Assembly (NCBI GenBank): GCA_951812655.1
Contig: OX638319.1
Coordinates: 1,465,620-1,529,619 of the forward strand
Origin: an uncultured Candidatus Nitrosopumilus sp.
Lineage (GTDB): Archaea; Thermoproteota; Nitrososphaeria; Nitrososphaerales; Nitrosopumilaceae
Direction of reading: 5' to 3'
DNA: 64,000 bases
In this document: one piece after another, positions 20,517 to 46,171 of the stretch
Layout: each line of letters begins with the position of its first letter
Position numbering within the stretch: the first letter of the stretch is position 1
Position numbers and translations under genes: made by a program
Notes under the pieces: model-generated
Databases searched by the model: none
Seen by the model: the letters and a program-made list of their open reading frames with translations, nothing else
Told to the model about the DNA's origin: nothing

Positions 20517-20915
20517 TATCGATTCGGTAACTCTGATATCAATCGGTAGATGGATTTATCAATTCGGTATCTTTTCGGAGAATCACATTGTCAATTCGGA
20601 GAGAAATGTTATCAATTCGGCAGAATGGTTATCTTTCCGGTAACAGAATTTATCTTTCAGGTGTGATTTTCTGTTATTCCGACAGAATATTCCGAGATTA
20701 CCGGATTGATAACTATCTTTCCGGGGAACCAAAATGATTTTTCCGATACGATTCTACATTTTCCGGGTTGATATCTCCGAAACTCCCGAGACTTTGTCGA
20801 TACTTTCCGAGAGTTTTGATCGTCATTCTATCTTTCCGGCTATCAATTCGGGGATTTTGTCGAGACTTTGTCGATACTTTCCGAGAGTTTTCCGAAACTG
20901 CCGGAAAGATATCGA
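20517..20915 (+). repeat. Left array: ~21-bp phased TATCWWTYCGG motifs
   Basis: The 11-mer TATCWWTYCGG or a close variant starts at 20517, 20537, 20557, 20568, 20589, 20610, 20630, 20651, 20672 and 20714, with more degenerate units to about 20915. Spacing is 20-21 bp with one 11-bp step, that is, whole helical turns. The region is non-coding: the 20-bp steps and stops break any long frame. Together with the decamer block that follows it is a diverged inverted copy of 45601-46171. Protein-binding iterons are the best guess. Confidence 0.75.
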
Positions 20916-21005
20916 AACTATGGTCTGATCGCTACAACCCTAATTTGATGATTCATTGCAGGTTAAACACGTTCAGTCCATTCTCATTGGACGTTTTTGG
21001 GCATT

Positions 21006-21133
21006 GTCCAGTTTTGTACATAGATAGATTCCAATATAGTCCAAAGATGTCCAATATAGTCCAAAGATGTCCAGTTTTGTCCAATAATGTCAAAATTTGT
21101 CCAAGAACATCCAAAACTGTCAAGAAATGTCAA
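21006..21133 (+). repeat. Left array: 10-bp phased GTCCA motifs
   Basis: The pentamer GTCCA or a one-base variant occurs at 21029, 21039, 21049, 21059, 21069, 21079, 21089, 21099, 21109, 21119 and 21129, exactly every 10 bases. Two more out-of-phase units lie at 21006 and 21016. One unit per helical turn puts all copies on one face of the DNA. The array ends at the stop codon of the zinc-ribbon gene 21130-21339. A matching inverted block is at 45601. Confidence 0.8.
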
Positions 21134-21339
21134 ACTTGGGAATTTTCACGATGCCTCTGCTTGGACTGATTGCCCTTGGGCTTGTTTCTCAGCATATGCC
21201 CACAACAGGGACACCATAGTCCTTCCCACTTTATGTAGATGTCACATGTGGTGCATCTCTTTGCCCCCTGTCTGTACCAAGAATCAGCCCTCTTTCCCTT
21301 TGTCACTGTGTACCTGTGGCAGATTCCGTTGCATGTCAT
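21130..21339 (-). CDS. Small zinc-ribbon protein (thaumarchaeal family)
   Basis: The 69 residues have the full family pattern: CNGICHRY...RQGAKRCTTCDIYIKWEGLWCPCCGHMLRNKPKG. The KRC..C...GLWCPCCG part is a complete four-Cys zinc site. It is the intact counterpart of 6408-6623. The role is unknown. The 3' end touches the 10-bp array, and the gene is divergent to the exported protein at 21395. Confidence 0.75.
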   Translation of the reverse strand: MTCNGICHRYTVTKGKRADSWYRQGAKRCTTCDIYIKWEGLWCPCCGHMLRNKPKGNQSKQRHRENSQV

Positions 21340-21357
21340 CTTTGTGCTACAACAAGG

Positions 21358-21375
21358 TAGAATTCTTTATGAATC
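21358..21375 (+). promoter_or_regulatory. GAAYT-TTATGAA promoter 1
   Basis: TAGAATTCTTTATGAATC places a TATA-like TTTATGAA 26 bases before the ATG at 21395, giving a leaderless mRNA. The same GAAYT-N2-3-TTATGAA layout precedes five other exported-protein starts between 22.5 and 46.3 kb. Confidence 0.6.
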
Positions 21376-21394
21376 TGCAAATAAAAGACAACGC

Positions 21395-22489
21395 ATGAGA
21401 ATGGGAACTGTCGTGGCTTTGTTGTTTTCATCCGTATTGATTCCTGTGATTGTTGATGAGGCCTATGCAAAATGCATGGTTGGCGATGAATGCTATGGAT
21501 CTCCACTAGTCCCTCCGTTGAAATTCCAATTTCAATATTTTGCACTGCCCGATATCATATGCCCCAATCAAGATCACGTTTTAACTGAGAGACCAAATGG
21601 AAAACTCGCATGCGTTACAAGCAGTATGGCAGAAAAGACCGGGTGGCACATACATTACATGAATGTAGTTGATGCCAAAGGTCAGGTCCATATTGTGTCT
21701 CCCGGAATAATTTCTTGGATTCCTTTTGAGATAACCGGAGCCACACTTGATAAGATGGTATACGAAAATCAGATGCTGGTCGTATCAGTTACGCCAAACG
21801 ATGAACATGGGGTACTGTCAGTTGAATTACCCTTAGGTTCAGTTCCAGCAAATTTTGAGTACTGTGGTACTGACAACGAGAACCCGTTTGACACGCCATT
21901 TGTTATGATCATTGACGGACAAAAATACCCTCTAGTTGAAGGCATAAACTCACGGGGTCAGCCTGCTGTAAACATTCCTCTTGATGAAAATTCAGAGACC
22001 GTTGAGATAGTCAGGACTTGCAATGACCCATCCAAAAAATCTTCAATTGATTCTGATTCCAAAAAAATGGAAGACGTGCAAGACCTAGAAAATATGAGAA
22101 AAAGCATACTGGAACTTGAATTTAATGATAACATCATAACGGTACTCATCAGCGATGAGACATATTTTGGAGCAATGACCTCTTTTGAATTTACAACCAT
22201 TTCTGTTTCTAATTTGGTGCATGCCCATGACATGTTGCCTGAGACAAGCATGAACGACCGCATAATAGCAGGATCCATACTGTCTGAGATAGTCAAGGCA
22301 GGAACCTACATCACGCAAAATGGGGATAAGGAATTCTGGTATGCTATAGGTGGAATTGAATCTCAGGTAATTACAATTGAGCTGCGAGACCATGAGTTTG
22401 ACAGGATTGTATTTGTCTCTGAGAACAGCAAGGAATGGATTAAACAGATCAATGATATTGTAAGTTCTACAGAACAAGTTCACAATTGA
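21395..22489 (+). CDS. Secreted protein with Cys module and a C-terminal domain shared with 42229-43782
   Basis: The ATG is chosen from the promoter spacing. A signal peptide ends at EAYA, followed by CMVGDECYG and the module IICPNQDHVLTERPNGKLACVT, which recurs in six other exported proteins here. The middle part (WIPFEITGATLDKMVYENQMLVVSV) resembles a beta-sandwich. The last ~130 residues (DVQDLENMRKSILELEFNDNIITVLISDE...) are almost identical to the C-terminus of 42229-43782 on the opposite strand, so the domain was recently duplicated. Function unknown; secreted or surface-bound. Confidence 0.7.
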   Translation: MRMGTVVALLFSSVLIPVIVDEAYAKCMVGDECYGSPLVPPLKFQFQYFALPDIICPNQDHVLTERPNGKLACVTSSMAEKTGWHIHYMNVVDAKGQVHIVSPGIISWIPFEITGATLDKMVYENQMLVVSVTPNDEHGVLSVELPLGSVPANFEYCGTDNENPFDTPFVMIIDGQKYPLVEGINSRGQPAVNIPLDENSETVEIVRTCNDPSKKSSIDSDSKKMEDVQDLENMRKSILELEFNDNIITVLISDETYFGAMTSFEFTTISVSNLVHAHDMLPETSMNDRIIAGSILSEIVKAGTYITQNGDKEFWYAIGGIESQVITIELRDHEFDRIVFVSENSKEWIKQINDIVSSTEQVHN

Positions 22490-22599
22490 TAGAATTTCTT
22501 ATGAATTTGAAGACAAAAAATGAAAACATGAGGGGTGGAATTGTTGTGGTTTTGTTGTTTGCAGCAGTCTTAATCCAAGTCATATCTGATCTCATTTGA
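22490..22599 (+). pseudogene. Duplicated promoter and signal-peptide fragment
   Basis: TAGAATTTCTTATGAATTTG at 22490 copies the promoter of the preceding gene. The frame from ATG 22501 or 22528 gives MRGGIVVVLLFAAVLIQVISD, nearly the signal peptide of 21395-22489, and then stops after DLI. It is a tandem copy of promoter plus export signal that lost its body. A real 24-33-residue membrane peptide cannot be excluded. Confidence 0.55.
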
Positions 22600-22624
22600 G
22601 ATAAATAATGCGTGAATGGTAAGA

Positions 22625-23254
22625 TTATTTTTTTGACTTGTAAATTGCATAAACTGTTTGAATCCAAGATCGGCGTAATTCTTTAGTGTCTTTTCCCATT
22701 ATCCTTCCTACCAAAGTACCCCTATACAATGAACCAAAACCATTCATGATGTCATATAATTCTGAATCTGAATAATTTTTAAGAAGATTTGTGGTATCTC
22801 GTATTTGTTTTAATGTTTCAAGACCCCATTTGCCAGTTTCCTTCTCTATCCCCAATAACAATTTTCTTAATTTTGGATTGTGATCAGATTCCATCATTCC
22901 TTCAATCCACAATCTCTCTAAATCTTTTGTACCCACAACAACACTGTCATAGTATTCTTCTAGATCTTCTAACAATGTATCTTCCTCACACATTTGTAAA
23001 TTTTGTCTTTTTTCAAAAAAATCCATTGTTTTTTTCATCGTGGTGTTTATATTTTCTGTACACACCACAAAAAATAGATCCTCTTTGTTTGAAAAATGGT
23101 GATATAATCCACCTTTACTGACTTTTGCAGTTAATGCAATATCTTTCAGGGATGTACCGGCATAACCTTTCTTTGCAAAATTTTTAGCAGCTGAAACTAG
23201 AATTTTCTTTTTCATTTCTTCTGGATTTTTTATTGGACCTTTCTGCATCTGCAA
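22625..23254 (-). CDS. TetR-family repressor
   Basis: The N-terminal HTH is classical for TetR: ILVSAAKNFAKKGYAGTSLKDIALTAKVSKGGLYHHFSNKEDLF (about residues 18-61). A 140-residue helical ligand and dimer domain follows. The first codon is TTG; an ATG two codons in is an equal choice. The gene is divergent from the monooxygenase operon at 23520 and most likely represses both. A perfect-arm palindrome lies 3 bases from its start. Confidence 0.9.
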   Translation of the reverse strand: MQMQKGPIKNPEEMKKKILVSAAKNFAKKGYAGTSLKDIALTAKVSKGGLYHHFSNKEDLFFVVCTENINTTMKKTMDFFEKRQNLQMCEEDTLLEDLEEYYDSVVVGTKDLERLWIEGMMESDHNPKLRKLLLGIEKETGKWGLETLKQIRDTTNLLKNYSDSELYDIMNGFGSLYRGTLVGRIMGKDTKELRRSWIQTVYAIYKSKK

Positions 23255-23256
23255 CT

Positions 23257-23271
23257 ATGATAATTTATCAT
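23257..23271. promoter_or_regulatory. Palindrome at the tetR start
   Basis: ATGATAA-T-TTATCAT has two perfect 7-base arms around one base and touches the tetR start. TGCATCT with ATGATA follows twice nearby. It is a natural autoregulatory operator candidate, though AT-rich palindromes also arise by chance. Confidence 0.4.
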
Positions 23272-23361
23272 ATATCAAAATTTTGCATCTATGATATGTC
23301 TAAAAAGAGGTTCAAAAACAAGGTTTTTTGTGCTTGTTTATTCTAAATATACTTTACAGGT

Positions 23362-23385
23362 CGGTTGACCGGTTTGTTTATATAA
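23362..23385 (+). promoter_or_regulatory. Operator-like CGGTTGACCG and TATA box of the monooxygenase operon
   Basis: CGGTTGACCG (23362-23371) is palindromic except for its two central bases and is the only GC-rich palindrome in this AT-rich gap. TTTATATAA (23377-23385) follows six bases later. The arrangement fits a TetR-type operator covering the BRE/TATA region. The gene start is about 135 bases further, so this mRNA has a leader. Confidence 0.5.
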
Positions 23386-23519
23386 TTTGTTTGCGGAATC
23401 TAAGATGAAAATCATTTGTCAATCCAGCTCATTGTAGGGAAAAACGTATCTAGTTCAAAATACTGCACTCCCATGACCTCAGAGATTTGGGTTAATTCTA
23501 AATTTTCGGGAGAGATGAA

Positions 23520-24713
23520 ATGAGTCTCAAAAACAAAAAAGCGATAATTATCGGATGCGGCATTGCTGGACCTTCACTTGCTATTGCATTAAAACATGTG
23601 GGAATTAATTCTGAAATATTTGAATCGTCAAAATCTACCCCTGACTTTGGAATTTTATCATTTACCTCAAATGCAATATCTGCATTAAAAGCGCTTGATG
23701 TATTTGAAAATTTTAAGAGTAATTCAACACCTGGCACATATTTTTATAAGCACAGTGGGAAAATACTCAAAACTCCCAGTTTTTTCCAAGAATTAAAAAA
23801 ACATAATCTTAATGATGGAATTACTATATTTAGAAGTCATCTTATTCAGGTTTTAAAAGACAAGACAATTTCAAACGGAATACAAATTAATTTTGGCAAA
23901 AAACTTGTAGATATTCAAGAAGAGCCGGATAAAATAATTGCAAATTTTGCAGACGGTACAAATGCAGAAGGGGATTTTTTGATTGGTTGCGATGGTCCCT
24001 TTTCTAAAACAAGAAACATCATTCTTCCCAACTCTCCATCTCCAGCATATACTGGAAACATTTGGACAGGAGTAGATTTAGGAATTTATACAAAATTCGA
24101 TCTTGTACCTAATGCATTTCACATGACTTTTGGCAAAAAAGCATATTCTGGCACTCTGACATTTTCTGATAAACATACTGTATGGTGGACAAATGTTCCT
24201 TGTTCTGAAAATGATTTGCACAAATTCAATGATATGTCTGCTGAAGATTGGACCGCAAAATTAATTGAATTACACCAGAATGACTGTCCTCGCATGGTTG
24301 ACTCTATTCGTGCGGGTAAAAACAAACATGTTAGAATTCCACTATATGATATCCCTCATCTTCCAACATGGCACAAGAATAATGTTTGTCTGATAGGGGA
24401 TGCTGCACATGCTACATCTCCATATGTAGGACAAGGAGCAGCCATGGCTATGGAAGATGCAGTGATATTGGCTATGTGTCTACGAGATATTCCCGATGTG
24501 AATGATGCATTTACAAAATTTGAGAAATTACGAAAAAAGAGAACTGAGAAAATAGTGAAAACATCCCAACAATCTGGAAAATTTATGACTGCGTCTAATC
24601 CTTTCAAACAGGTATTACGGAATTTATTGTTACCAGTTACAATTTCATCTTCTATTAAAAAATTAAACTGGATTTTCTCATACAAATTAGATTGGAGTGA
24701 GAAAATAGAATGA
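23520..24713 (+). CDS. FAD-dependent monooxygenase (group A, first paralog)
   Basis: The 397-residue protein has the dinucleotide fold IIGCGIAGPSLAIALKHVGI at the N-terminus, EGDFLIGCDGPFSKTR near residue 150 (DG motif), and CLIGDAAHATSPYVGQGAAMAMEDA near 290 (GD motif). These three mark PHBH-type flavin hydroxylases. The substrate is unknown. It overlaps an obvious paralog by 4 bases. GGGAGAGATGAA precedes the ATG. It is the first gene of a five-gene operon probably controlled by the divergent TetR. Confidence 0.9.
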   Translation: MSLKNKKAIIIGCGIAGPSLAIALKHVGINSEIFESSKSTPDFGILSFTSNAISALKALDVFENFKSNSTPGTYFYKHSGKILKTPSFFQELKKHNLNDGITIFRSHLIQVLKDKTISNGIQINFGKKLVDIQEEPDKIIANFADGTNAEGDFLIGCDGPFSKTRNIILPNSPSPAYTGNIWTGVDLGIYTKFDLVPNAFHMTFGKKAYSGTLTFSDKHTVWWTNVPCSENDLHKFNDMSAEDWTAKLIELHQNDCPRMVDSIRAGKNKHVRIPLYDIPHLPTWHKNNVCLIGDAAHATSPYVGQGAAMAMEDAVILAMCLRDIPDVNDAFTKFEKLRKKRTEKIVKTSQQSGKFMTASNPFKQVLRNLLLPVTISSSIKKLNWIFSYKLDWSEKIE

Positions 24714-25903
24714 AAGCAATAATTATCGGATGCGGCATTGCAGGACCAGTTCTTGCATTGGCATTACATAAAGCAGGAATCGACTCCGAAATATTTGAAG
24801 CGCAAAAATCACTAGATGACGATGCAGGATTGTTCCATTATCTTTCCCCAAATGGAATGAACGTGTACAACGTCTTGGGAATATATGATAAAATTTTCAA
24901 TTTAGGACATGTTTGCAATAAAACCACACTCAATGATGAAAATGGGAATACTTTTGCTTCTTTTGATGAGGGTAATTCCATGAATGAGTTTGGGGCAAAT
25001 AGCATCATGATTAAACGAGGTGTCTTGACTAAAGCTCTTCGTGAAGAAATAATCGATAAAAGAATTGCTTTGCATTTTAATAAAAAACTAAAAGATATTG
25101 AGGATCTTGGAAACAAAGTCATTGCACGTTTTGAAGATGGCACTAGTGCAGAAGGTGATTTCCTCATCGGATGTGACGGGATACATTCACGTGCTCGAAA
25201 AATCCTGATGCCTGATGCCCCAAAACCATCCTACACAAAACTTGTCATGGCTGGCGGATATGCAAAAATCCCTAGCAAAAATCACAAAAACAGCATGATT
25301 TATGCCAATTATTGCAAACGAGCCTATCTTGCCTATTTCATACTTCCAAGTGGCGAGGTCTGGTGGTGGAATGCGCAATCATATCCGGAAGAACCAAGCA
25401 AAGCGGATCTACAAAAAATCACCGATAAGCAATGGCAAGAACACATGATTGAACTTTACAATGAAGATTCTTCAATTATTCAGGAGATTGTCCAATCTGA
25501 CGAAAATGATTTTATGAAATATCCGATATCAGATATGCCCCCATTGGATACATGGTACAAAGGAAATGTATGTCTAATTGGAGATGCAGTGCATGCTACA
25601 TCACCCACGAATGGTCAAGGTGCTGCCATGGCAAGTGAGGATGGGGTGACGCTTGCAAAGTGCTTGCGAGACATGGAATCGCCGCAAAAAGCATTTGAAA
25701 AATTTCAAGAATTGCGAAAAGAGAGAGTAGACAAGATAGTAAAATTCGGACGTCGAAATGGTGACGGCTATTTTCTTACCAATCCTATGAAAAAATGGTT
25801 CAGAAACACCCTGATACGCATAATGACTTCTCCCATGATTTTCAATCGCATGAAAAAAGAGTTTTTTGGTTATGATGTGAAATGGGATGAAAAAATAGAA
25901 TGA
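24710..25903 (+). CDS. FAD-dependent monooxygenase (group A, second paralog)
   Basis: Same length and motifs as its neighbour: IIGCGIAGPVLALALHKAGI, EGDFLIGCDGIHSRARK, CLIGDAVHATSPTNGQGAAMASEDG. Tandem duplication of a hydroxylase with coupled ATGA overlap suggests two successive oxidations of one substrate, or a heteromer. It also resembles geranylgeranyl-reductase/halogenase-type flavoproteins at this level. Overlaps the membrane-protein gene by 4 bases. Confidence 0.9.
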   Translation: MKAIIIGCGIAGPVLALALHKAGIDSEIFEAQKSLDDDAGLFHYLSPNGMNVYNVLGIYDKIFNLGHVCNKTTLNDENGNTFASFDEGNSMNEFGANSIMIKRGVLTKALREEIIDKRIALHFNKKLKDIEDLGNKVIARFEDGTSAEGDFLIGCDGIHSRARKILMPDAPKPSYTKLVMAGGYAKIPSKNHKNSMIYANYCKRAYLAYFILPSGEVWWWNAQSYPEEPSKADLQKITDKQWQEHMIELYNEDSSIIQEIVQSDENDFMKYPISDMPPLDTWYKGNVCLIGDAVHATSPTNGQGAAMASEDGVTLAKCLRDMESPQKAFEKFQELRKERVDKIVKFGRRNGDGYFLTNPMKKWFRNTLIRIMTSPMIFNRMKKEFFGYDVKWDEKIE

Positions 25904-26427
25904 AAATTAATTTGAGATGGGTTGACAAATTCATCATTGCAGCAATAATTCAAGGTGCGGTAATTGCTGTAATGGCACTAGTCATTGTAACAATACAGAT
26001 GCTAAATAATGAAATTAACATAATTCAGTATCTTTCATTGTCTTTTGATGGTACTGCAAAATGGTTCTTTTTGGGAATCATCTTTCATCTTATCATAATA
26101 GTCGCAGTTGCAGTTACTGCATTGTTTTACAGTCATCTTGAGATAACTTTACAAAAAAAATTCTCAAGAAAAGCAAACATTCTAGCTACAATCCACTTAC
26201 TTGGAATGAATGTTGGTGGTGCAGGTTCTATGATGATTATGACATATGCAGGTTTGGCAGGGACAGGATTGCTCAGTATCTTCACTGAAGGAAAATTAGG
26301 TCCAAAATACCCTGCAATCATGGATTCATTTATCGAGCCTATTGGGGCATTCATTGCATTTTTAGCAATAGGTGTCATGTGTGGAGGTTTAGGTTTTGTA
26401 TTGGCATACAGGAACATTGAGGATTAA
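25900..26427 (+). CDS. Four-helix membrane protein of the monooxygenase operon
   Basis: 175 residues with four membrane helices (about 10-34, 50-75, 95-120, 145-168). The last two are Gly-rich (MNVGGAGSMMIMTYAGLAGTG, AIGVMCGGLGFVLAY). The family is not recognised. Translational coupling with both flavoprotein genes suggests that their substrate or product is a membrane lipid or pigment. Confidence 0.6.
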   Translation: MKINLRWVDKFIIAAIIQGAVIAVMALVIVTIQMLNNEINIIQYLSLSFDGTAKWFFLGIIFHLIIIVAVAVTALFYSHLEITLQKKFSRKANILATIHLLGMNVGGAGSMMIMTYAGLAGTGLLSIFTEGKLGPKYPAIMDSFIEPIGAFIAFLAIGVMCGGLGFVLAYRNIED

Positions 26428-26436
26428 TGAAATAAC

Positions 26437-27630
26437 ATGTCTGTTGAAATTCTAAATTATTCTTTGTCTGTGATTTTGATAATCATTTCTTTTATGTGGA
26501 TATTTTTGATATATTCATTATACAAATCCATAAAATTCTCTCCACGTTTGGATGTCTTTGAAAAACAAGATCATGGCACTCCAAAAGTTTCAGTCATAAT
26601 TCCTGCAAGAAATGAGGAACATAATATTGGAAGATGTTTGGATTCGTTACTTGAACAAACATATGAAAATTATGAAATTGTTGTAATCAACGATTCATCT
26701 GAAGACAAAACAGGAGATATTATTGCACAATATGCAAAGAAGCATTCCAACATTGTGGCTGTAACTGCAAACCCAAAACCTGATGAATGGATGGGTAAAA
26801 ATTGGGCATGCATGGAAGGATACAAAAAAGCGTCGGGCAAATTATTATTATTTACTGATGCTGACACAATACATTCTAAAAATATAATTTCATTAACTGC
26901 ATCTCATTTACTCTCTTGCAATCTTGATGCTTTGACTGCCATACCTAGATTAAATATGAATAATGTTTGGCCAAAAATTTCTTTTAACATGTTAAGTTGT
27001 ATGACCCAAGCACAATATTCTCCTCTACAGCTTAATGATCCCTCTAAAAAAGTAGGTATATTTTTTGGAAGTTTCTTTATGCTATATCGAAAAGTTTACG
27101 AAGCCATTGGCACACATGAGAGCGTAAAATCGGACATTATTGAAGATGGATTACTAGGTCAGAAAACAAAAGATATGAAATACAAACTAAAGATAGTGCG
27201 AGGAGAGCATTTAATTCAAGCAAGTTATGGAAGTGATGGTTCTGTTTGGGATGGATTGAATAGAGTAATAATTCCTACATTCTTTAAACAAAGGAAATTT
27301 GTGATTGGAATGTTTATGATGACTTTTCTTTTACTATTATTTCCATTTTTGAATTTAGGATATTCTTCTTTGTTTATTTTGGATTCATTATCCTTTCAAA
27401 CTCTTTTTGTATCATCAATAATGGCTTCATTTTTGATATTACTTTCAGCGACAATTCATGCTAAGAGATTATTTGCATTAAAAACAATTCATGGTTTGCT
27501 GGCACCTATTGGCAGTACAATTTTGATATTTGGTGTAATTAATGGAATGATACAAGCCATTCAAAACCCCATAGTAGCATGGAAGAAACGAAGTATTGCT
27601 GTGTGTAATAGAATTGGGGATGAAAAATGA
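26437..27630 (+). CDS. Membrane glycosyltransferase family 2
   Basis: One N-terminal helix precedes a GT-A domain: VSVIIPARNEEHNIGRCLDSLLEQTYENYEIVVINDSS, the metal-binding DADT (near residue 146) and DIIEDGLLGQK as the catalytic ED region. Three C-terminal helices follow. The architecture fits HpnB/CrtQ-like enzymes that glycosylate hopanoids or carotenoid acids. With two flavin hydroxylases next to it, glycosylation of an oxidised lipid or carotenoid is plausible but unproven. Confidence 0.85.
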   Translation: MSVEILNYSLSVILIIISFMWIFLIYSLYKSIKFSPRLDVFEKQDHGTPKVSVIIPARNEEHNIGRCLDSLLEQTYENYEIVVINDSSEDKTGDIIAQYAKKHSNIVAVTANPKPDEWMGKNWACMEGYKKASGKLLLFTDADTIHSKNIISLTASHLLSCNLDALTAIPRLNMNNVWPKISFNMLSCMTQAQYSPLQLNDPSKKVGIFFGSFFMLYRKVYEAIGTHESVKSDIIEDGLLGQKTKDMKYKLKIVRGEHLIQASYGSDGSVWDGLNRVIIPTFFKQRKFVIGMFMMTFLLLLFPFLNLGYSSLFILDSLSFQTLFVSSIMASFLILLSATIHAKRLFALKTIHGLLAPIGSTILIFGVINGMIQAIQNPIVAWKKRSIAVCNRIGDEK

Positions 27631-28667
27631 AGGTTAAAAGAATTTTAAAATATTCTGGCATCTCTGTTGCCGTTTTGATGGTGGGCTTTCTTGCCGTAGC
27701 GCAAATTGCATATCAGAGCATAGCTGAAATCGTTCCTCCAGGTACAATGTACTCGATTAATGATACAGAAATTCACATGTATTGTACTGGATCAAATAAC
27801 GATGAAAAACCAACAATAATCATCATCTCTGGAGGAAGTACTGCAAGTCTGGAGTATTTTTATCTGCAGGAGAAGTTATCTCAAACCATTCGTACATGCA
27901 CTTATGATACTGCAGGAATGGGTTGGAGTCCTGCAAACGACATTCCATATACTGCAAAAAACATGTCTGATGAATTATACCAACTCTTACAGACTGCACA
28001 AATTGACGGTCCGCTAATCCTGGCAGGACATGACGTGGGTGGAATCACAGGCCTGGTTTACAGTGCAGAACATAACGAACAGGTTGGAGGATTAGCGATT
28101 ATTGATCCAAGTCACTATGATCAACCCGGTTATTTTGGAGAAGAATTCAAAGAGAAATTTGACAAAAGAATACAGGAATCTTTGGCCAATTTTTGGCTGG
28201 TAGAACTTGGCAATAATCTTGGAATCATGCATTTGTTAGGCATTTGGAATCATCCCGAACAAACCATGCAAGAATACAATGAAATGCGTTCATCATTATA
28301 TAGGTGGAATCCTCCCTTTTCTGCAATAAAATCGATGGCCAGTAATATTGACTTGATTTCTGAACAGGGAAAAGAAGCACATCATGACCGGGGAGATTTG
28401 CCAATGATTGTTATTTCAGCAGCAGGTCCAATTGCAGGCGATTCTAGAGAGATAGGAGGAATACCAATAACGGAATACAGGAAAGGCCTTGATGAACTTC
28501 ATAAAGACTTGGCAGGATTGTCAAGTAATGGCAAACATGTCATTGTAAACGGGACAAGTCATACCAACATAGTATACAATGATGAGATAGCAGAGCACAT
28601 TCTGGATCTGGTTCCTCTGATTGAAGATATACAAAACGAAAGATCAACCCATGCAAGATTTAATTAA
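27627..28667 (+). CDS. Alpha/beta hydrolase with Asp at the nucleophile position
   Basis: A single N-terminal membrane anchor precedes an alpha/beta hydrolase domain: IIISGGSTASLEYF (oxyanion region), DTAGMGWS, and the nucleophile elbow AGHDVGG with Asp at residue 136 instead of Ser. GTSHTNI near residue 313 supplies the catalytic His. An Asp nucleophile is the mark of epoxide hydrolases and haloalkane dehalogenases. Epoxide hydrolysis would fit the upstream monooxygenases. It overlaps the glycosyltransferase gene by 4 bases and ends the operon. Confidence 0.8.
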   Translation: MKVKRILKYSGISVAVLMVGFLAVAQIAYQSIAEIVPPGTMYSINDTEIHMYCTGSNNDEKPTIIIISGGSTASLEYFYLQEKLSQTIRTCTYDTAGMGWSPANDIPYTAKNMSDELYQLLQTAQIDGPLILAGHDVGGITGLVYSAEHNEQVGGLAIIDPSHYDQPGYFGEEFKEKFDKRIQESLANFWLVELGNNLGIMHLLGIWNHPEQTMQEYNEMRSSLYRWNPPFSAIKSMASNIDLISEQGKEAHHDRGDLPMIVISAAGPIAGDSREIGGIPITEYRKGLDELHKDLAGLSSNGKHVIVNGTSHTNIVYNDEIAEHILDLVPLIEDIQNERSTHARFN

Positions 28668-32249: not shown

Positions 32250-32273
32250 TTTCAATTTTCATGATTGAATCTT

Positions 32274-36878: not shown

Positions 36879-37447
36879 TTTATTTTTCCATCAAATGCTA
36901 TTTTACTGTCATATTCTACTGATTCATTGGTTATCACTGTCGGAGCAGAGTCAAACAACCCTCTAAACTGGCACGTTTTTTCCAGTTTGGGATTAAAATC
37001 ATCATAATACTTGCAGTGATCAAGGCATTCAGATACGCCCGTTATGGATTGAGACGTGGTGCTTCCCTGAAAAGTTCCATCTGGCATGACCATGCTAGAT
37101 GATATGCTGCATTGGCCCTGTTCCCATTCTGGCACGATTAAGCCACTGGGCAATACGATAATTGATATCGGAATTATTGTGACAAAAATAAGCATCATTT
37201 TCTTGTATTTTTTTATCAATGGCAACCATGATGGATTGACTTTGAACAGTGCACGATAAACAAAATAAAGTAGCAATCCCGTGCTTACAAGTGAGTATAA
37301 TGAAAACCCTGAGAAATAACTCATGCCCGTTCCAGGCAATAGAATATGAGGTATCAGAGACATGGGTATGATTGCAAAAAAATAGCAAAGTATGCCAATG
37401 GCAATCCAGATGACTCTTTTGCGCAAGTTTTCAAAATAATTTGTCAT
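36875..37447 (-). CDS. Membrane protein with outer Cys domain, next to AmoB-like gene
   Basis: 190 residues with about four membrane helices in the first 110 residues. An outer tail has four Cys (GQCSIS, SECLDHC, KTCQF), probably disulfide-bonded. It does not resemble AmoA or AmoC as far as I can see. It follows the AmoB-like gene with a 4-base overlap, so the two products may interact in the membrane. Confidence 0.55.
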   Translation of the reverse strand: MTNYFENLRKRVIWIAIGILCYFFAIIPMSLIPHILLPGTGMSYFSGFSLYSLVSTGLLLYFVYRALFKVNPSWLPLIKKYKKMMLIFVTIIPISIIVLPSGLIVPEWEQGQCSISSSMVMPDGTFQGSTTSQSITGVSECLDHCKYYDDFNPKLEKTCQFRGLFDSAPTVITNESVEYDSKIAFDGKIK

Positions 37448-38947: not shown

Positions 38948-39300
38948 TTTACCCCTTTTCCAATCAATTCGTTTATCTTCTTGGATACATCGTCACTGTC
39001 TTCCAACTCCAGAATTATTTTAGAGTAAAAGTTTGATTTTAAAACCAAGATGAGAAAACGATGTTTTCTCTTTTTGACATACCAGAACTGTTTTTGGGTT
39101 CCTGCAAGGTATGTTCCAATCTCCAAGAGTTTGGGCAGATTTGTTCCTGCTATCTTCATTCCAGGTAAATTGTGTGATTCTTCTGAAATGGCAGAGACAA
39201 TGTTGCCATATGGAATGTAAAATGATCCCTTTGCAGCACCTGTCTTTTCTAGAATGTTGAGGTTGATTCTCAAATGGTCATCAAACAGAATTACTTTCAT
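38944..39300 (-). CDS. Small PH-like domain protein, unknown
   Basis: 118 residues without signal peptide: KGSFYIPYGNIVSAISEE, AGTQKQFWYVKKRKHRFLILVLKSNFYSKIILELED and a final helix. The strand pattern with one C-terminal helix suggests a bacterial-type PH domain. It is the only clearly cytoplasmic product in this exported-protein operon and overlaps the next gene by 4 bases. Confidence 0.5.
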   Translation of the reverse strand: MKVILFDDHLRINLNILEKTGAAKGSFYIPYGNIVSAISEESHNLPGMKIAGTNLPKLLEIGTYLAGTQKQFWYVKKRKHRFLILVLKSNFYSKIILELEDSDDVSKKINELIGKGVK

Positions 39301-39308
39301 TTTCTAAC

Positions 39309-39704
39309 CTACCAGCACCCATTACCATCAATGTCATTTGGAGATGGGTTATGTATCATAACATGCGGATACCAATCCCTAAGATCTCCACATGTATAGA
39401 TGAACTCATACTTGCCAAAATTTTTTTCAACGCGTAATTCAGCTATCAATGAATCATTGTTAACAGCACCATATCCCCACGCAGACAGTATCATTCCAGG
39501 GGATTTACCGCGGCCAGAAAAGTGTTCAGGATATACTGACTTGAAATGCTTTACAATGCCTTCATCGTCAAACCTTTCATGAAACTCTTCCAAAGACATT
39601 TCAGGTTCTGTATGAATAAAAATTACCTGCATTAATAGGGCCACATAAAGCAACACTGACACTGCCGCTGCTATTGCGATAATTGCCATGATTTTGGTCT
39701 TCAT
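39309..39704 (-). CDS. Exported protein, unknown
   Basis: The frame is open from 39746, but the ATG at 39704 (MKTKIMAIIAIAAAVSVLLYV) gives a proper anchor and a 4-base overlap with the gene before it. 131 residues with two Cys near the end (YTCGDLRDWYPH, NGCW). No family recognised. Confidence 0.5.
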   Translation of the reverse strand: MKTKIMAIIAIAAAVSVLLYVALLMQVIFIHTEPEMSLEEFHERFDDEGIVKHFKSVYPEHFSGRGKSPGMILSAWGYGAVNNDSLIAELRVEKNFGKYEFIYTCGDLRDWYPHVMIHNPSPNDIDGNGCW

Positions 39705-40798
39705 TTCCCAGTCAAGCCCCATTCTGAGCAGCCTTCTCTTGCCCATGATTCATCTGCAAACTCACTGGTATGGCAATACATGCCATCAAAATACTCAGAA
39801 TCAAATTTAACCAGTTCTTCATTGAGATTCAAGCCATTGCAGTATACTGTTCCCAGGATTCTACCGCTGCCGATAAGTCCTTCAAATGGGCGCAGATTAT
39901 CCTGGTCAACTAGCGCATCAGAACCAACGGGACATACGCTCTCCAGAAACGCCTTGGCTTTTTGCCCTTCCTCCTCGTCTAGTTGTGTAGAAGATATCAA
40001 TACAAGGCCAAACCTGGCATGATCAACTCTGACAGTATCCCCGTCAAGTATCTCGGTGACCGTTCCCGTAAAGCATCTTGGACTAAATGACGTCGGGCAA
40101 CTCTCGGGATTTTTAGACTCTTCTGAGACATGCAATGGTTTGTCTTTGGAATCATGGCAGATGTGTGTGATTTTGATGATTCTGGAATTCGCATCTAGTG
40201 GAATGTGTAAAGTGACAGGAGTACCATGAAAGTCCTGCTCATAATCCAGATCATGCTCGACATCATTGATGACTGCAATGTATGATGTCTTTACGGGACC
40301 TATTTTCAGATCACACGGTTCTGAATTTGCATCAAGCAAGTCATACGGAATCTGAAATGACAATGCGCCATCCTCGGCATACGGTCTTGTGGTTGCAATC
40401 AATGAGTTGTTCTCAAATGAGAGTTTCTCAAAAATTGCACCCCTTATTTCAAAATGAACATCATAATACAAATTTTCTTTTTCCAATACCCGAAGGGCTT
40501 TGTACTCCGCAATGTACCTGTAATCCATGTGCTGCCATGTCCTTTCTATCGTGTCTGACGTCAGACAGGCCAGTTTTTTGTTGGACCTCTCAACTAGCAT
40601 GTGATCGTATCGGGGACAGGTGATGTCAAACAGTGAGACGTCCTGTCTGACTTGCTTCTTTAACGGCTCAATTCCTGCGATGCGACGGCAGTCCTCCCCA
40701 TTAATGCATTTTGCAGAAGCATCAGGCGCATCCAAAGCTACCAACGCTATAGATGCCAAGACAATGTCCGCAATGATTATCAAAAATCTGTTTTTCAT
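39701..40798 (-). CDS. Secreted protein with Cys module and staphylococcal-nuclease-like domain
   Basis: A signal peptide (ATG 40798 chosen, TGGAG upstream) ends ASAKC. The module FDITCPRYDHMLVERSNKKLACLT and a beta-domain follow. A TNase-like domain (about 245-350) starts with CFTGTVTEILDGDTVRVDHARFGLVLISS and continues with DALVDQDN, RILGTVYCNG and SEFADESWAREGC. The catalytic Arg expected after the GDT strand is not there (LVLISSTQ). One Arg remains in GSGRILG. Nuclease activity is doubtful. It is a paralog of 40814-42177. Confidence 0.65.
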   Translation of the reverse strand: MKNRFLIIIADIVLASIALVALDAPDASAKCINGEDCRRIAGIEPLKKQVRQDVSLFDITCPRYDHMLVERSNKKLACLTSDTIERTWQHMDYRYIAEYKALRVLEKENLYYDVHFEIRGAIFEKLSFENNSLIATTRPYAEDGALSFQIPYDLLDANSEPCDLKIGPVKTSYIAVINDVEHDLDYEQDFHGTPVTLHIPLDANSRIIKITHICHDSKDKPLHVSEESKNPESCPTSFSPRCFTGTVTEILDGDTVRVDHARFGLVLISSTQLDEEEGQKAKAFLESVCPVGSDALVDQDNLRPFEGLIGSGRILGTVYCNGLNLNEELVKFDSEYFDGMYCHTSEFADESWAREGCSEWGLTGK

Positions 40799-40813
40799 CT
40801 TTTTCTCCAAATC

Positions 40814-42177
40814 CTATTTGGAACAGCCTTCTCTTGCCCAGGATTCATCTGCAAACTCACTGGCATGGCAATAGGTACTGTCGAAAGTCCCAAGTTCGCG
40901 TTGCAGTAATATTTCATTGATATTGTAACCGTTGCAATAGACCACAGCTAGTATCGATGCATCAGCAGTGAATCCGTCTGACTGCTGTATATTATCCTGA
41001 TCCACCAGCGCATCAGTCCCATCTGGACAGTATCTCTCGACCACTCCTTTGGCACCTTTCCATCCCTCTTCACCTGATTGAGGGACGGATATCAGTGCAA
41101 GGTTAATTGAGACATCATTGATCTGAACTGTGTCCCCATCAACTACATCCGTTATCTTACCTGCAAAACACCTTGAGGAAAATGATTGAGGACAATCGTC
41201 TGAATTTTTAGGATCACTTGAAGGCTCATCTGTGGAATTCAGGCTTGCCAGGTATCCTATCCCCTTGAGGAAATATTGTGGTCCGCGGTCTGATTCTGCC
41301 CACGTCCACGCATTGTGTTTTATCGTGCCATAAAGATGAGGGTCATCACCATATGCTATCTTGTAGACATCAATCTCTTTCATTGATGGCATGATGATAA
41401 TCTCACGGTCTGCCAGAAACTGAATTGCAGAAATTAGTGTCTGATCATCAATCTGTCCCTCATTCCACCATCGTGCGTTATGCTCTATCCAGTATGGGAT
41501 GTGTACGGAGGAGAATGTCTCAGATGAAACATCAGATGAATTCCCTGTGTCGATGGGAATGATTTGAACAGAATCTACAATGGCATCAAACACCGGAAGG
41601 TAGTCTGGAAATCCATCCCATACACTGTATGTGAAAACATATCTAGAATTGCCATCGATTATGAATACCTCTGACATAACAAGTCTGTGTCCCTCATTGT
41701 CTGATATGGAATATGTCAATTGCCATGCAGGATGGTTTGATACGACAAGGGGTTTTGATTCAACTACCTTGAGATCATTTCCTTTGGTTTGCAGTATCCT
41801 CACATGTGACTCTGCAATCTCTTCAGGAGTTATCTTGCTGTCACGGTACATGTATTCCATGGAAATGAGTCCGGTGCTTCCTGGAGCCCAGAACCGTGCA
41901 ACAAACGGGGCATTTTGGAGGCCGTCAATCAGACTCCAGTTTCAGGATATTCCAAGTTTACACCGATTTTGGTATTCTCATAAGGCCAATAGGTATTTTG
42001 GAGGCCGTCAATCAACAATCGGTCTTCTTGAGACTCCAAAGTTACACCAATGTCATCGTTCTGGTAATTCTCATGCTTTTTGTTTTCTTTGTCTTCTGTC
42101 TGTGCAAACGTATCCTGAACTGACAATGTAATTGCAAAAATACCCAATAAACCAAACAAAACAAAACCAAGTTTCAT
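40814..42177 (-). pseudogene. Secreted PsbP-like/SNase-like protein broken by a frameshift
   Basis: The 5' part (ATG 42177) encodes a signal peptide ending DTFAQ and ends at a TGA near 41930. The other frame continues from LIDGLQNAPFVARFWAPG to the end. The break lies in an imperfect ~80-bp tandem repeat: TTTTGGAGGCCGTCAATCA occurs near 41917 and again near 41997. Domains: PsbP-like (YENTKIGVNLEYP), a WWNEGQIDDQTLISAIQFL module, and a TNase-like domain (AGKITDVVDGDTVQIND) without the expected catalytic Arg residues. It could also be one gene with a sequencing error. Confidence 0.6.
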
Positions 42178-42199
42178 GTTCTTTCTTTTTGACATCAAG

Positions 42200-42215
42200 T
42201 TCATAAGAGATTCTG
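42200..42215 (-). promoter_or_regulatory. GAAYT-TTATGAA promoter 3 (exported operon)
   Basis: On the minus strand CAGAATCTCTTATGAA puts its TATA-like TTATGAA 26 bases before the ATG at 42177. It should drive the ~9.6-kb operon that runs to 32579. Confidence 0.55.
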
Positions 42216-42228
42216 TCAATTACAATAC

Positions 42229-43782
42229 CTACTTTCTGGAAATTATCATATCGTTAATTTGCTCAATCCATTTTTTATTATTATCCGATACAAAGACAAT
42301 CCTGTCGTATTCATGGTTCTGCAGTTCAATTGTAATTACCTGGGATTCAATTCCACCTATTGTATACCAGAATTCAATGTCATCGTTTTGGGTGATGTAT
42401 GTACCTGCCTTGACTATCTCAGACAGTATAGATCCTGCTATTATGCGGTCATTCATGCTTGTCTCAGGCAACATGTCATGGGCATGCACCAAACTAGATA
42501 CAGGAATAGTTGTAAATTCAAAAGATGTCATTGCTCCAAAATGTGTCTCATCACTGATAAGTACCGTTATGATGTTGTCATCAAACTCAAGTTCCAGTAT
42601 GCTTGTTCTCATGTTTTCTATGTCCTGCACGTCTTCCATCATTTCCAAATACTTTGCAGGTCCAAACTCTCCAACGTCACTGTCTGAAAGACAGTCATAT
42701 CTTTGCAGATACTCTGTGATATTGTCACTTCCTCGTACAACATATCCCCTATCATGATACTGGTTTGGAGGACAGCTTAGAACGTTGTCCATCTCTCCTG
42801 ATTCAAGATTTTTCACCAAAAACAGCCAGACAGAGCCACCTGGAAGCGAGTCTTTGGCAGCATACTGCTTAAAGTGAAATCCAGACTCGTTGATTCTGTC
42901 AGATTGTATTTCTGCCTGAAGGTATTTCTCAAGGAACAGTTTCACTTCTGGGATGTCAAAATCATCTTCAGGTGTTGATTTGGGTTCTGTTCCAATTCCT
43001 TTTCCTGTATGGTTTGGGATCATGCATTTACCGTCCCATTCTCCACCCGACATTTGACATTTGTAAGAACTTTCCACATCCATGCATTCACCAGTTTCAT
43101 CAAAGAATCCGCCTCCATACAGTTCACACAAATATTTTGGAATATTCTTGTCTGCTTCTGCCCTTGGATCTGTGTCTATCCATCCTCTTTGAATCAGTTT
43201 TGGGATTGTATCAAAATTAACACATGCGGGATAGCCATTGTGTCTCATTACGAGAATCAAAGAGTCCCTGCATTGCATCTCTTCGATTGGAATATCTGAT
43301 CTGAATTGCTTGAGTGGTGAAATAATGTAGGAGTATGGAGGATTGTGGAAAAGATCACATACCCCGTCATTGTCTTTTTCGCCAGTTAGATAGTAACTGC
43401 CAATTATTTTGACTTTACTTGTCTCCTCTGGGAAATTCACAGTTATTACATTTCCAACAATTGAAACGTCATCCCATTCATTCCCGTCAACAAGTATCAT
43501 GAATATCCCTCCATACATTTTACGAGGCAAATCCAACTGTAAAACACCCGTGCCTGTGGATGCAATGGATATGTCAAGTGAGGCCTCATCACAGTTTAGA
43601 CTGATATCATTAATTGTTGCACCGGTTATTTTGTATGGCATGACGTATCTCATCGGATTCTCAATTATCGTAAATGTATCATCATGGTCTTTCATGTCGA
43701 ATTCTTTTTCTGCAATTGCAGTACCAGTAAATCCTAAAGACAGTGAAATTCCAACAACAATCATCAAAAGTTTGACGTTCAT
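42229..43782 (-). CDS. Secreted protein with Cys module and C-terminal domain shared with 21395-22489
   Basis: 517 residues. The signal peptide ends GTAIAEK. A beta-sandwich with an IPYKITGATINDISLN-type strand pattern follows. The module is MQCRDSLILVMRHNGYPACVNFDTIPKLIQRGW. A small Cys unit (CELYGGGFFDETGECMDV) comes next. The last ~130 residues (DVQDIENMRTSILELEFDDNIITVLISDETHFGAM...) match 21395-22489 almost residue for residue. The two genes point toward each other inside the inverted arrays. Function unknown. Confidence 0.65.
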   Translation of the reverse strand: MNVKLLMIVVGISLSLGFTGTAIAEKEFDMKDHDDTFTIIENPMRYVMPYKITGATINDISLNCDEASLDISIASTGTGVLQLDLPRKMYGGIFMILVDGNEWDDVSIVGNVITVNFPEETSKVKIIGSYYLTGEKDNDGVCDLFHNPPYSYIISPLKQFRSDIPIEEMQCRDSLILVMRHNGYPACVNFDTIPKLIQRGWIDTDPRAEADKNIPKYLCELYGGGFFDETGECMDVESSYKCQMSGGEWDGKCMIPNHTGKGIGTEPKSTPEDDFDIPEVKLFLEKYLQAEIQSDRINESGFHFKQYAAKDSLPGGSVWLFLVKNLESGEMDNVLSCPPNQYHDRGYVVRGSDNITEYLQRYDCLSDSDVGEFGPAKYLEMMEDVQDIENMRTSILELEFDDNIITVLISDETHFGAMTSFEFTTIPVSSLVHAHDMLPETSMNDRIIAGSILSEIVKAGTYITQNDDIEFWYTIGGIESQVITIELQNHEYDRIVFVSDNNKKWIEQINDMIISRK

Positions 43783-43804
43783 TTATTCAGACTGTATTTA
43801 GCAA

Positions 43805-43820
43805 GTTCATAAATAGTTCT
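43805..43820 (-). promoter_or_regulatory. GAAYT-TTATGAA promoter 4
   Basis: On the minus strand AGAACTATTTATGAAC lies 27 bases before the ATG at 43782, the spacing of a TATA box on a leaderless gene. Confidence 0.6.
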
Positions 43821-43860
43821 AATCTTGTATCAGAAAATCTAATTTTTCTTTTCTAGGTAT

Positions 43861-45507
43861 TCATCCCGTGATGGCCCCTCTCTGTTGGGCCTCTTCTTTT
43901 GATATTGGCAAATTTTGCACGTTTGAAAGATTTGTCTCAAGCAAATCTGCATTATTGAGGTTTGCACCCTGTAGGTCCGCACCAGACAGGTTGGCCCCTC
44001 GAAGATTGGCATTTTCCAGGTTTGCATTTTGCATGTTGGTATTTTGCAGACTCGCATTATGCAGATCCGCATATTTTAGGTTTGCAAACTGCATGTTGGC
44101 ATCATCAAAATTCAGTTTTTTTAAGTTTGTCTCAGCCATCATTGCACCCTGTAGGTCCGCACCCTGAAAGTTTGTCCCAGTCATACTTGCAATTTGAAAA
44201 TTCACTCCTCTCAAATCCGCATTTTGGAGGTCTGCATTATCCAGGTTTGAATCATTAATGTGTGTGTTCTTCATATTTGCACCTGTCAGGTCCGCACCAT
44301 GAAGATTTATGCCATAAAGATACGCATCACGGATGTCTGCATTACTCAAGTTTGCACCCTGAAGATTTGTGTACTGAATATTTCTATAATCAAGAACAAT
44401 TCCCTGAAGATTTGCATCTTTGAGGTTTGCATACTCGATATGAACACGTTCTAGGTTGATTTCACGTAAATCCATTCCCTGAATGTCTGCGCCTTCAAGG
44501 GACACTTGAACGTGACTCAGATCCAGGGTTTCTTTTAGATTGTTAAACTCAGACACTTGTCCACCTTCAAGCAACTCGACGAGTTTTTCGTTATCGTTAT
44601 CGCTGTCTGATTTTGCCAATGTGTCGCTCTCATTTTTAGTCCACCCTCGCTCAATCAGCTTCATTTTGGTTTCAGGAGTTACACATGCTATGCGTTTGTC
44701 ATCTGAGATCTCCTGCTCAAGCAACCTGTATCCTGTCTTGCATTCTATCTGTGAAGCACTCACTCCCATCTGGTATTGTATTGATGGCGGGAATTGCTCA
44801 GTTACAATTCCTATCTTTCCAACTTTGGTTTGCGGGACTTTTGTCAGGAGCGTTCCGTCATCATCCACTGAAAACTCCCAGCTTACAGATATCGCACACC
44901 TGTCCTTGTTTATCCCATTTGGCCTGTCGGACTGGAACAAGACCGCATGAAAGTCATAGGTACCGGGACCCAGTCTTTCAGAAGGCATCACCACAGATTT
45001 GCTGTCCCCTGGCAGATATTTTTCATGGTTGTCAACATCGCCTATTGTGGAATTCTGACTGTCTGATTCAAAAACAAATGCAAGATGCGGATAGTCCTTT
45101 ATGTATAATCCACCGGTTATTGAATGACCTGGATGCTTTTTCACATCCACGACATATGCCGGGATTCCATTGCTTTTGGGAAGTGCAGATTCCAAGTAAC
45201 TGTATGAATCTGAATCAGATTCGCCCAAAATTATAAAGAAATTGTCTTCAGTATCATCTATGTTCAGGAGTTGATCTTGATTGGCATCTATGATGCCCGT
45301 TTTGACTTGAGGTTGTATGCTTTCACAGAAAAGAGAACTGTCATCTTCAATAAATTCTAAAATTCCAAAATAATATGAGAATACGTTTGATTGGATGTCC
45401 TCGTTTTCAGATTCTCCAAACGTGGTACCATGACCTGGCTGAATCAATGGACTTGTCAGCATGCCAAAAACAAGAACGGACATCAGGCCAATTCCAAGCA
45501 GAGTCAT
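43861..45507 (-). CDS. Secreted pentapeptide-repeat protein with Cys module
   Basis: A hydrophobic N-terminus (residues 1-25) is followed by an alpha/beta outer domain and the module QIECKTGYRLLEQEISDDKRIACVTPETKMKLIERGW. From about residue 325 to the end run ~40 pentapeptide units of the A(D/N)LxG type (GANLSNADIRDAYLYGINLHG...). They form a right-handed quadrilateral beta-helix of about ten coils. Such a long helix is a rigid rod, probably a surface spacer or ligand. The nucleotide repeats make this gene prone to recombination. Confidence 0.85.
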   Translation of the reverse strand: MTLLGIGLMSVLVFGMLTSPLIQPGHGTTFGESENEDIQSNVFSYYFGILEFIEDDSSLFCESIQPQVKTGIIDANQDQLLNIDDTEDNFFIILGESDSDSYSYLESALPKSNGIPAYVVDVKKHPGHSITGGLYIKDYPHLAFVFESDSQNSTIGDVDNHEKYLPGDSKSVVMPSERLGPGTYDFHAVLFQSDRPNGINKDRCAISVSWEFSVDDDGTLLTKVPQTKVGKIGIVTEQFPPSIQYQMGVSASQIECKTGYRLLEQEISDDKRIACVTPETKMKLIERGWTKNESDTLAKSDSDNDNEKLVELLEGGQVSEFNNLKETLDLSHVQVSLEGADIQGMDLREINLERVHIEYANLKDANLQGIVLDYRNIQYTNLQGANLSNADIRDAYLYGINLHGADLTGANMKNTHINDSNLDNADLQNADLRGVNFQIASMTGTNFQGADLQGAMMAETNLKKLNFDDANMQFANLKYADLHNASLQNTNMQNANLENANLRGANLSGADLQGANLNNADLLETNLSNVQNLPISKEEAQQRGAITG

Positions 45508-45530
45508 TCATCAAGCATGATTTTGCTTCC

Positions 45531-45545
45531 TCATAAGTAGTTCGA
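45531..45545 (-). promoter_or_regulatory. GAAYT-TTATGAA promoter 5
   Basis: On the minus strand TCGAACTACTTATGA lies 28 bases before the ATG at 45507. The 10-bp phased array begins about 55 bases upstream of it. Confidence 0.55.
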
Positions 45546-45600
45546 AGAAATCATCAGCAGTCAGCCATCATTGTATCATTTTGATTTTTTAAAACAGGTT

Positions 45601-45674
45601 TGGACAATGTCTGACATTGTTGGACAAAACTGGACATCCTTGGACTTTATTGCACATTTGTATTTGGACAATGT
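45601..45674 (-). repeat. Right array: 10-bp phased TGGAC motifs
   Basis: TGGAC or a one-base variant starts at 45601, 45611, 45621, 45631, 45641 and 45651, exactly every 10 bases, with one out-of-phase unit at 45665. It is the complement of the GTCCA decamer at 21006-21133. The surrounding bases also align, so this is a diverged inverted copy. Confidence 0.75.
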
Positions 45675-45730
45675 CCAAAAATGTCTAATAAAGACGGATT
45701 GAACGTCAGATGTAATCGATAAACTGTCGA

Positions 45731-46171
45731 AATAGAATTACTGCGATCGGATTATTTTTTGACATCTTTCCGACAGTTTCGACAAACTCTCGGTAAATAT
45801 GGAAAAGTTTCGGTAAAATCATCGAATTGATAGCCGGAAAGATAGAACTGCGATCAAAAGTTTCGGAAAATATCGACAAATTCTCGGAAGTTTCGGAATT
45901 ATCAATCCGGAAAAATCCATTTTGGTCTCCTGAAAAATAGTTATCAATTCGGTTGTGCGGAATATTTCACCGGAAAGATGGAAAGTCACACCGGAAAGAT
46001 AGATTCTGTTACCGGAAAGATAGATTCTGTTACCGGAAAGATAGAACTTCTCATCGAATTGATAAAATGTTTCTCCGAAAAGATACCTGATTGATAAACT
46101 TCGAAACTAGATTAGCTCCGAATTGATAATCCGTTACACTGAATTAATAATTTTGTCATCCAAATTGATAC
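45731..46171 (-). repeat. Right array: 21-bp phased CCGRAWWGATA motifs
   Basis: Motif starts at 45970, 45991, 46012, 46033, 46054, 46075, 46086, 46118, 46139 and 46160: steps of 21 bp with one of 11 bp and one of 32 bp. More degenerate units reach back to about 45731. The 11-bp step falls at the same place as in the left array. Part reads as a heptad peptide (TGKIDSV) but is broken by stops. The block lies between divergent promoters for 45507 and 46259. Confidence 0.78.

Follow-up and report, generated by a model that had tools for sequence, protein, structure and literature searches.

Phased repeat arrays beside casposon genes and exported-protein operons in a Nitrosopumilus genome

Two inverted arrays and their phased sites

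The stretch of DNA considered here, referred to as the window, comprises 64,000 nucleotides (positions 1465620-1529619) of the single-contig 1.67-Mb genome of an uncultured Candidatus Nitrosopumilus (G000; assembly GCA_951812655.1, contig OX638319.1). It contains two arrays of short repeated sites in opposite orientation, and an earlier note, made from the sequence alone, had described the 25 kb between them as an island, either a large element with long inverted ends or the space between two inverted copies of one regulatory locus that could recombine and flip it. The arrays are built of blocks, here called A, B and C, and are laid out as follows, in window coordinates.

20517-21110, plus strand: array 1 (own1); A end toward a TATA-binding protein (TBP) gene, C end toward the gene starting at 21395
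20517-20851, about 20740-20912 and about 21017-21110: blocks A (11-bp sites in 21- and 11-bp steps), B, and C (TCCAA every 10 bp) of array 1
45600-46181, minus strand: array 2 (own2); the grammar of array 1, reversed; A end toward a serpin gene, C end toward a pentapeptide-repeat gene

As had been claimed, the two arrays are reverse complements of one another, block for block: their local alignment score is 374, as compared with 23.1 ± 2.5 (maximum 31) for 200 dinucleotide shuffles. When they are aligned globally, 438 of the 647 columns are identical (68%); BLASTN finds 72% identity over query positions 95-644. The longest exact match between them is 25 bp. The 21-, 11- and 10-bp steps are likewise borne out by the site positions in array 1, in which the A+ sites lie at array coordinates 1, 41, 52, 73, 94, 114, 135, 198, 313 and 325, and the TCCAA motifs at 514, 524, 534, 544, 564 and 584. 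The two are not a unique pair; a third copy, array 3 (own3), is located 65 kb away at G000:1421285-1421881. The earlier description of the pair as one regulatory locus present in two inverted copies is supported.

A search of 100 genomes revealed four further arrays in a complete relative, G053, and 12 of the 95 genomes of the genus contain matches to a strict two-site pattern searched with up to one mismatch, the reversed control pattern giving 0 matches. The array-bearing relatives of the source genome are Nitrosopumilus; they are denoted here by G numbers and their contigs by C numbers. For comparison, 28 arrays were taken from G000, G053, G127, G009 and one casposon contig of G058, each showing one or more B or C sites in a strict motif scan; contig C16 of G127 was kept though cut at the contig edge. 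G058 C227, G129 C3 and the coding arrays described below were left out, as were, for example, G127 C18, C21 and C82, and genomes G018 and G036 stand outside the comparison.

Each array is a series, 0.1-0.65 kb long, of the 11-bp A site TATCWWTYCGG, with about 5-18 copies, mostly on one face of the helix. Successive A sites are spaced by 11/12, 20/21, 31/32, 42, 53, 63, 73 bp and so on, and across the 28 arrays a further site lies at +11/12, +20-22, +31-33 or +40-44, the frequency at intermediate phases being 0.00. The Rayleigh R at a period of 10.5 bp is 0.89, 0.93 and 0.96 for arrays 1 to 3, values that 0 of 2000 random placements reached in each case. Among 106 pairs of sites 21 bp apart, motif identity is 0.90, a figure inflated by the detection rule, and spacer identity 0.46. 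In most arrays the A sites are followed by a B block (TTTGTCGA/TTTTCCGA) and then a C block with TCCAA about every 10 bp, always in that order; the C block is missing in arrays that adjoin casposon polymerases.

Genes on the two sides of the arrays

The genes that flank the arrays mostly point away from them. Outward transcription is seen for the C-side gene in 24 of 27 cases and for its A-side counterpart in 16 of 22, and an exported-type N-terminus is found in 34 of the 40 outward array-adjacent genes, as against 18 of 94 open reading frames (ORFs) at unrelated loci. The array-adjacent genes are also enriched for a promoter box: in 26 of the 40, YTTATGAR is located 18-40 nt ahead of a possible start codon, compared with 15 of 166 control ORFs, the same loose start-codon rule having been applied to both sets in this and the N-terminus comparison. 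A position some 30 nt upstream is what would be expected of an archaeal TATA box with near-leaderless transcripts.

Some arrays also have a casposon nearby. By tblastn, 11 of the 28 arrays have casposon genes (Cas1, PolB or the gene for a small membrane protein) no more than 10 kb away, and in all 11 these are at the A end. Those of the window are listed below; the earlier note had overlooked the second and third.

74-2908, plus strand: casposon family-B DNA polymerase, 944 aa; motifs DCTSTYPTM, KIIANTAAYG and YMDTDS by eye
15459-16691, minus strand: cas1 casposase, 410 aa, on the A side of array 1 and 3.8 kb outside it (PF01867 6e-59, TIGR00287 4.9e-55)
53957-55396, plus strand: casposon remnant, A side of array 2, comprising fragments of cas1 and polB (53957-54995, 7.8 kb outside the array) and a small membrane-protein ORF with a coding array at 54935-55072

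A Cas1 casposase gene and a family-B polymerase gene with small genes upstream, by which casposons are recognized, are thus both present. The closest solved chain to the product of cas1 is PDB 6opm (1.4e-69). For the polymerase, a profile search gave no PDB match of note; among seven homologs in the alignment PF00136 is matched by two and PF03175 by one, and the window copy matches neither. An AlphaFold model of the polymerase was too poor for use (mean predicted local distance difference test score 43), and a PF03175 search of the source genome returned only a weak match at 1410512, which is not a casposon polymerase. Passages of PMC6563490 and PMC4046053 describe elements with cas1 and polB in Nitrosopumilus in which polB is accompanied by three or four small genes. 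In G009, two contigs of G058, C18 and C51 of G127, and G129, polB and the small ORF are immediately followed by an array, and in G127 C18 there is a sharp junction with a cupredoxin flank at 3762. Within the remnant, a 42-bp tandem duplication (97% match) at 54509-54593 coincides with the start of the polB fragment ORF.

The A site also occurs within coding sequence. On the minus strand at 2848-3027, eight copies lie in the 3' end of polB and in the small ORF 2908-3369, and further coding arrays lie at the same junction at 54935-55072, at G000:1447504-1447619 and in relatives. The site recurs every 21 bp in the reading frame, and in 38 coding units from seven ORFs every glycine codon is GGA and every isoleucine codon ATA, compared with 23 of 37 and 16 of 54 elsewhere in those ORFs; the units are related by descent, so that significance values (Fisher) overstate their independence. 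The spacer codons vary, and an alternation of methionine and leucine falls on the W position of the DNA site. Since the glycine and isoleucine codons are locked and the spacer codons free, the pattern is read as selection on the DNA, and such locking of codons to the DNA site points strongly in that direction.

The other genes beside the window arrays are as follows.

19900-20460, plus strand: TBP gene, A side of array 1, its 3' end 57 bp from the array
21139-21360, minus strand: short cysteine-rich module, zinc-ribbon-like by eye, between array 1 and its first C-side gene
21395-22489, plus strand: first C-side gene of array 1, exported-type, with a TTTATGAA box at -29
22625-28667: TetR gene (minus) and an operon (plus) of two FAD monooxygenases, a glycosyltransferase and an alpha-beta hydrolase
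32579-45507, minus strand: C-side operon of array 2, exported-type genes, the first being the pentapeptide-repeat protein 43861-45507
46259-48052, plus strand: A-side gene of array 2, exported-type with a serpin domain and a CTTATGA box at -32

A 94% identical TBP in G127 likewise adjoins an array, and TBP genes stand beside 5 of the 28 arrays (array 1 and G127 C54, C28, C63 and C89); in G053 the window TBP has no ortholog, the best match being 75%. However, TBP matches occur in 94 of the 95 genus genomes, often several per genome, and the adjacency of arrays and TBP genes is therefore a lead rather than proof. The cysteine-rich module is also found on the C side of the G053a array, and probably of G127 C64.

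Several features of the exported genes are recorded for their own sake. The product of 46259-48052 is an exported-type serpin in a Nitrosopumilus genome, and a passage of PMC6790972 discusses extracellular serpins as characteristic of relatives that are associated with sponges. A domain that is short and lacks annotation, roughly C..L.....G.PACV....KLI.RGW, was seen by eye in 46259-48052, 43861-45507, 21395-22489 and 42229-43782, and thus spans exported proteins of differing architecture, including the serpin and the pentapeptide-repeat protein. Within 33716-40802 and related operons of G053 and G127, thirty otherwise unrelated exported ORFs are nearly identical in sequence at and about the start codon, with the consensus GGAGAAAAAGAAA-ATGAAGACTAGACTTTTGATAATT; it looks as though a single leader segment had been fused onto many proteins. 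Since an N-terminal pattern was used to pick the ORFs, the coding portion of this consensus is biased.

Reassortment of flanks and the composition of the island

Array copies in different genomes were compared together with their flanking genes, a pair being counted only if one flank was common at 85% identity or more and both flanks were known. Six cross-genome pairs have one flanking gene in common at 88-94% protein identity, and the other flank is common in none of the six. Array 2 with G053a, array 3 with G053b and array 1 with C54 share the A side; array 2 with C7, array 3 with C63 and G053c with C54 share the C side. Two pairs were left out, G053a with C64 (C side 74%) and array 3 with G053d, where the similarity on the A side is confined to the promoter and the opening codons of the gene, and G127 contigs C16 and C27, which have a 116-bp exact run in common and may be one locus, were kept separate and fall outside the six. 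Array identity tracks the common flank in array 3-C63 (58/84%), G053c-C54 (69/90%) and array 3-G053d (88/42%). That orthologous arrays keep one flank and never both suggests that operons have been exchanged at the arrays.

Within the island, the TetR and FAD-monooxygenase operon of the earlier note is confirmed, as is, at the level of ORFs, the operon of exported genes, and the facing duplicated domains are real: 22062-22467 and 42239-42644 are 86% complementary over 406 nt, with a 42-bp exact run. In G053, the monooxygenase and hydrolase genes match 1315-1318 kb and the exported gene at 42229 matches 1714-1715 kb, beside different arrays; at a third array region (1739-1747 kb), window 36125-36885 is found at 1739 kb, and 39721-40715 and the 22043-22574 domain match 1745-1747 kb. 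The genes of the island thus fail, at least in part, to vary as a block, being spread over three array loci. G127 C28 carries a similar TetR/monooxygenase/hydrolase cargo, but the two arrays that flank it there point the same way instead of being inverted.

No cas1, polB or integrase gene was seen in 21110-45600, as the earlier note had stated of the integrase, although not every small ORF was scanned; by tblastn within 10 kb of the arrays, casposon genes lie outside only. Both window arrays have their A ends outward, and the island is therefore outside both units. The proposal of a large element with long inverted ends is accordingly not supported, given dispersed arrays, casposon genes on outward A ends and scattered island genes. 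The island is a mosaic and occupies the space left between two units of casposon origin that oppose each other. The suggestion that the arrays could recombine is supported only as evolutionary exchange at the arrays; a present-day flip between the two window arrays is unlikely because their longest exact match is 25 bp and no recombinase was seen inside. The zinc-ribbon module was tried as proof of a flip, since the serpin and zinc ribbon of G053a match the expected inversion product; because a third array (G127 C64) has a similar module, however, its gain or loss would be just as likely, and the argument was dropped.

Other candidate origins were also rejected. A single exact match among viral contigs, without casposon genes, was taken as chance. 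A structured transcript was dropped because no Rfam family matched the window at its gathering score and because the promoter boxes come after the arrays; linkage to tRNA integration was set aside with no tRNA in the window. Of the non-Nitrosopumilus pattern matches examined, L099, L077 and L071 contained no casposon genes. L085 (JAJDDX010000210.1), labeled Phycisphaerae OFTM243, carries a Nitrosopumilus-type casposon polymerase (PolB), small ORF and coding array, and is probably mis-binned. G127, a 2.3-Mb metagenome-assembled genome, has 99 two-site matches, 14 cas1 and 10 TBP matches, an apparent burst of casposon, array and TBP amplification. A dispersed palindrome of about 100 bp, resembling a miniature inverted-repeat transposable element, was seen at 12397-12510, at 32270-32376 (arms 32274-32315 and 32328-32369), in G127 C54 at 4202-4320 and in C28.

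Interpretation and comparison with known systems

The reading favored here, with a probability of roughly 0.6, is that the arrays are casposon-linked, polar, bidirectional and phased cis-regulatory modules, copies of which have spread with casposons, recombined and swapped operons. Each array would stand between a casposon side at its A end and an exported-protein operon at its C end, and a putative protein bound along the phased sites would coat one face of the array and control the divergent core promoters, in which YTTATGAR lies about 30 nt before the start codon. Array copies would spread with casposons and persist after casposon decay, and recombination between copies, presumably homologous, would swap the attached operons. 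The window would then represent two opposed array units whose cargo sides face each other, mimicking an island with inverted ends. A bolder version, possible but offered only tentatively, is a casposon-derived regulon in which a putative factor, perhaps together with a TBP paralog, reads arrays that head exchangeable operons, the arrays serving as both switch and crossover point in the reshuffling of exported proteins, and their site being carried even in the coding sequence at the casposon's polymerase/small-gene junction.

Several observations weigh against the modular, regulatory reading. Exported-type N-termini are also found in 100 of 191 other ORFs in array regions that are not array-adjacent. 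In 17 of the 28 arrays there is no casposon gene in the flank examined, partly from contig ends, and at the casposon-end arrays of G058 (two contigs), G127 C18 and G129 gene ends converge on both sides, so that those arrays are not between divergent promoters. The co-occurrence across the genus genomes speaks for the reading, PolB being present in 9 of 12 array genomes and 7 of 83 others, and the small ORF in 12 of 12 and 2 of 83, but that with the small ORF is partly circular since the search pattern detects coding arrays too. The gradient of array identity is weak or absent in array 1-C54, array 2-G053a and array 3-G053b, which share the A side, and in array 2-C7 and G053a-C64, which share the C side. 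Finally, G127 is fragmented, with 8% contamination, and its repeats may be misjoined; among the exchange pairs, only array 2-G053a and array 3-G053b compare single-contig genomes.

Of the alternatives, that which survives best, though unlikely, is that the arrays are casposon transposition ends, long terminal inverted repeats (TIRs) with repeated casposase or accessory-protein sites as in Tn7, and that the window pair bounds one element. In its favor, arrays adjoin the casposon end that carries PolB and the small ORF in G009, G058, G127 and G129, and casposon TIRs of up to 602 nt are reported in a passage of PMC4046053. Yet no second inverted array was found past cas1 within about 18 kb in G009, 4.6 kb in G058 C74 and 7 kb in G127 C75, and an inverted-repeat search around five loci returned no clear TIR, the right-hand ends of the elements staying undelimited; one of these loci, G122, is array-free and has inverted pairs of 63 bp at 78% and 20 bp at 95%. 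The window arrays, moreover, have their A ends outward, whereas ends that bounded the island as one element should have them the other way round.

Less probable again is that the arrays are iteron-like casposon replication or partition sites that have since dispersed. While 21-bp direct repeats beside a polymerase gene, with coding copies within the PolB/small-ORF junction, are what such sites might look like, most copies precede outward genes with YTTATGAR boxes, and the A-B-C order is conserved with exported operons. The polymerase of family 1 casposons is also described in a passage of PMC6563490 as protein-primed, and such an enzyme would presumably need no iterons.

A still smaller chance is given to a 25-kb invertible island, in which the arrays recombine now and flip the genes between them as a form of phase variation. 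The inverted orientation, the facing domains and the evolutionary reassortment at arrays would all fit, but the repeats are far from near-identical, no recombinase was seen inside, and the island genes are scattered in G053. Least probable of all are ordinary duplicated promoters of a paralogous exported-gene family, phased by archaeal histones and only incidentally linked to casposons: exported genes are indeed common across these regions, the islands being hot spots, but a sequence-specific 11-bp site, codon-locked coding copies and a casposon polarity that is one-sided in all 11 arrays with such genes argue otherwise.

Casposons have been studied mainly as ancestors of CRISPR adaptation, and little is known of their effect on host genes. 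If the favored reading is true, casposons would act both to regulate and to diversify the cell surface in a marine ammonia oxidizer that is widespread. The arrays also offer a defined bait for finding the putative binding factor. A search of the open PMC literature, apart from supplements such as those with published TIR sequences, returned no description of such arrays.

The ends of Tn7- and Mu-type transposons carry repeated transposase sites, and the arrays resemble them in having direct sites about 21-22 bp apart at an element edge; in contrast to these ends, only one array per casposon was found, and arrays also stand alone between host operons. Like integron cassette arrays, they place a promoter region before exchangeable gene modules, but the exchange point is at the array and gene starts, and no integron integrase or attC was seen, none having been sought. 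The fast-changing secreted-protein operons and their modular exchange recall surface-antigen expression sites, and also the archaeal 'dark matter islands' described in PMC4158269, although here a common phased array heads each operon and is linked to casposons.

Family 1 casposons of Nitrosopumilus, NitAR1-C1 and NitAR2-C1, differ in that the cas1 described here encodes 410 aa, as compared with the 1044-nt gene given for N. koreensis in a passage of PMC6614799, and in that TIRs were not found here and phased arrays and exported cargo go unmentioned in the passages of PMC4046053 and PMC6563490 that describe the two elements. In the same passages, however, the elements resemble those of the window in their Cas1 and family-B polymerase, in the small genes just upstream of polB, in belonging to the same genus, and in their patchy distribution.

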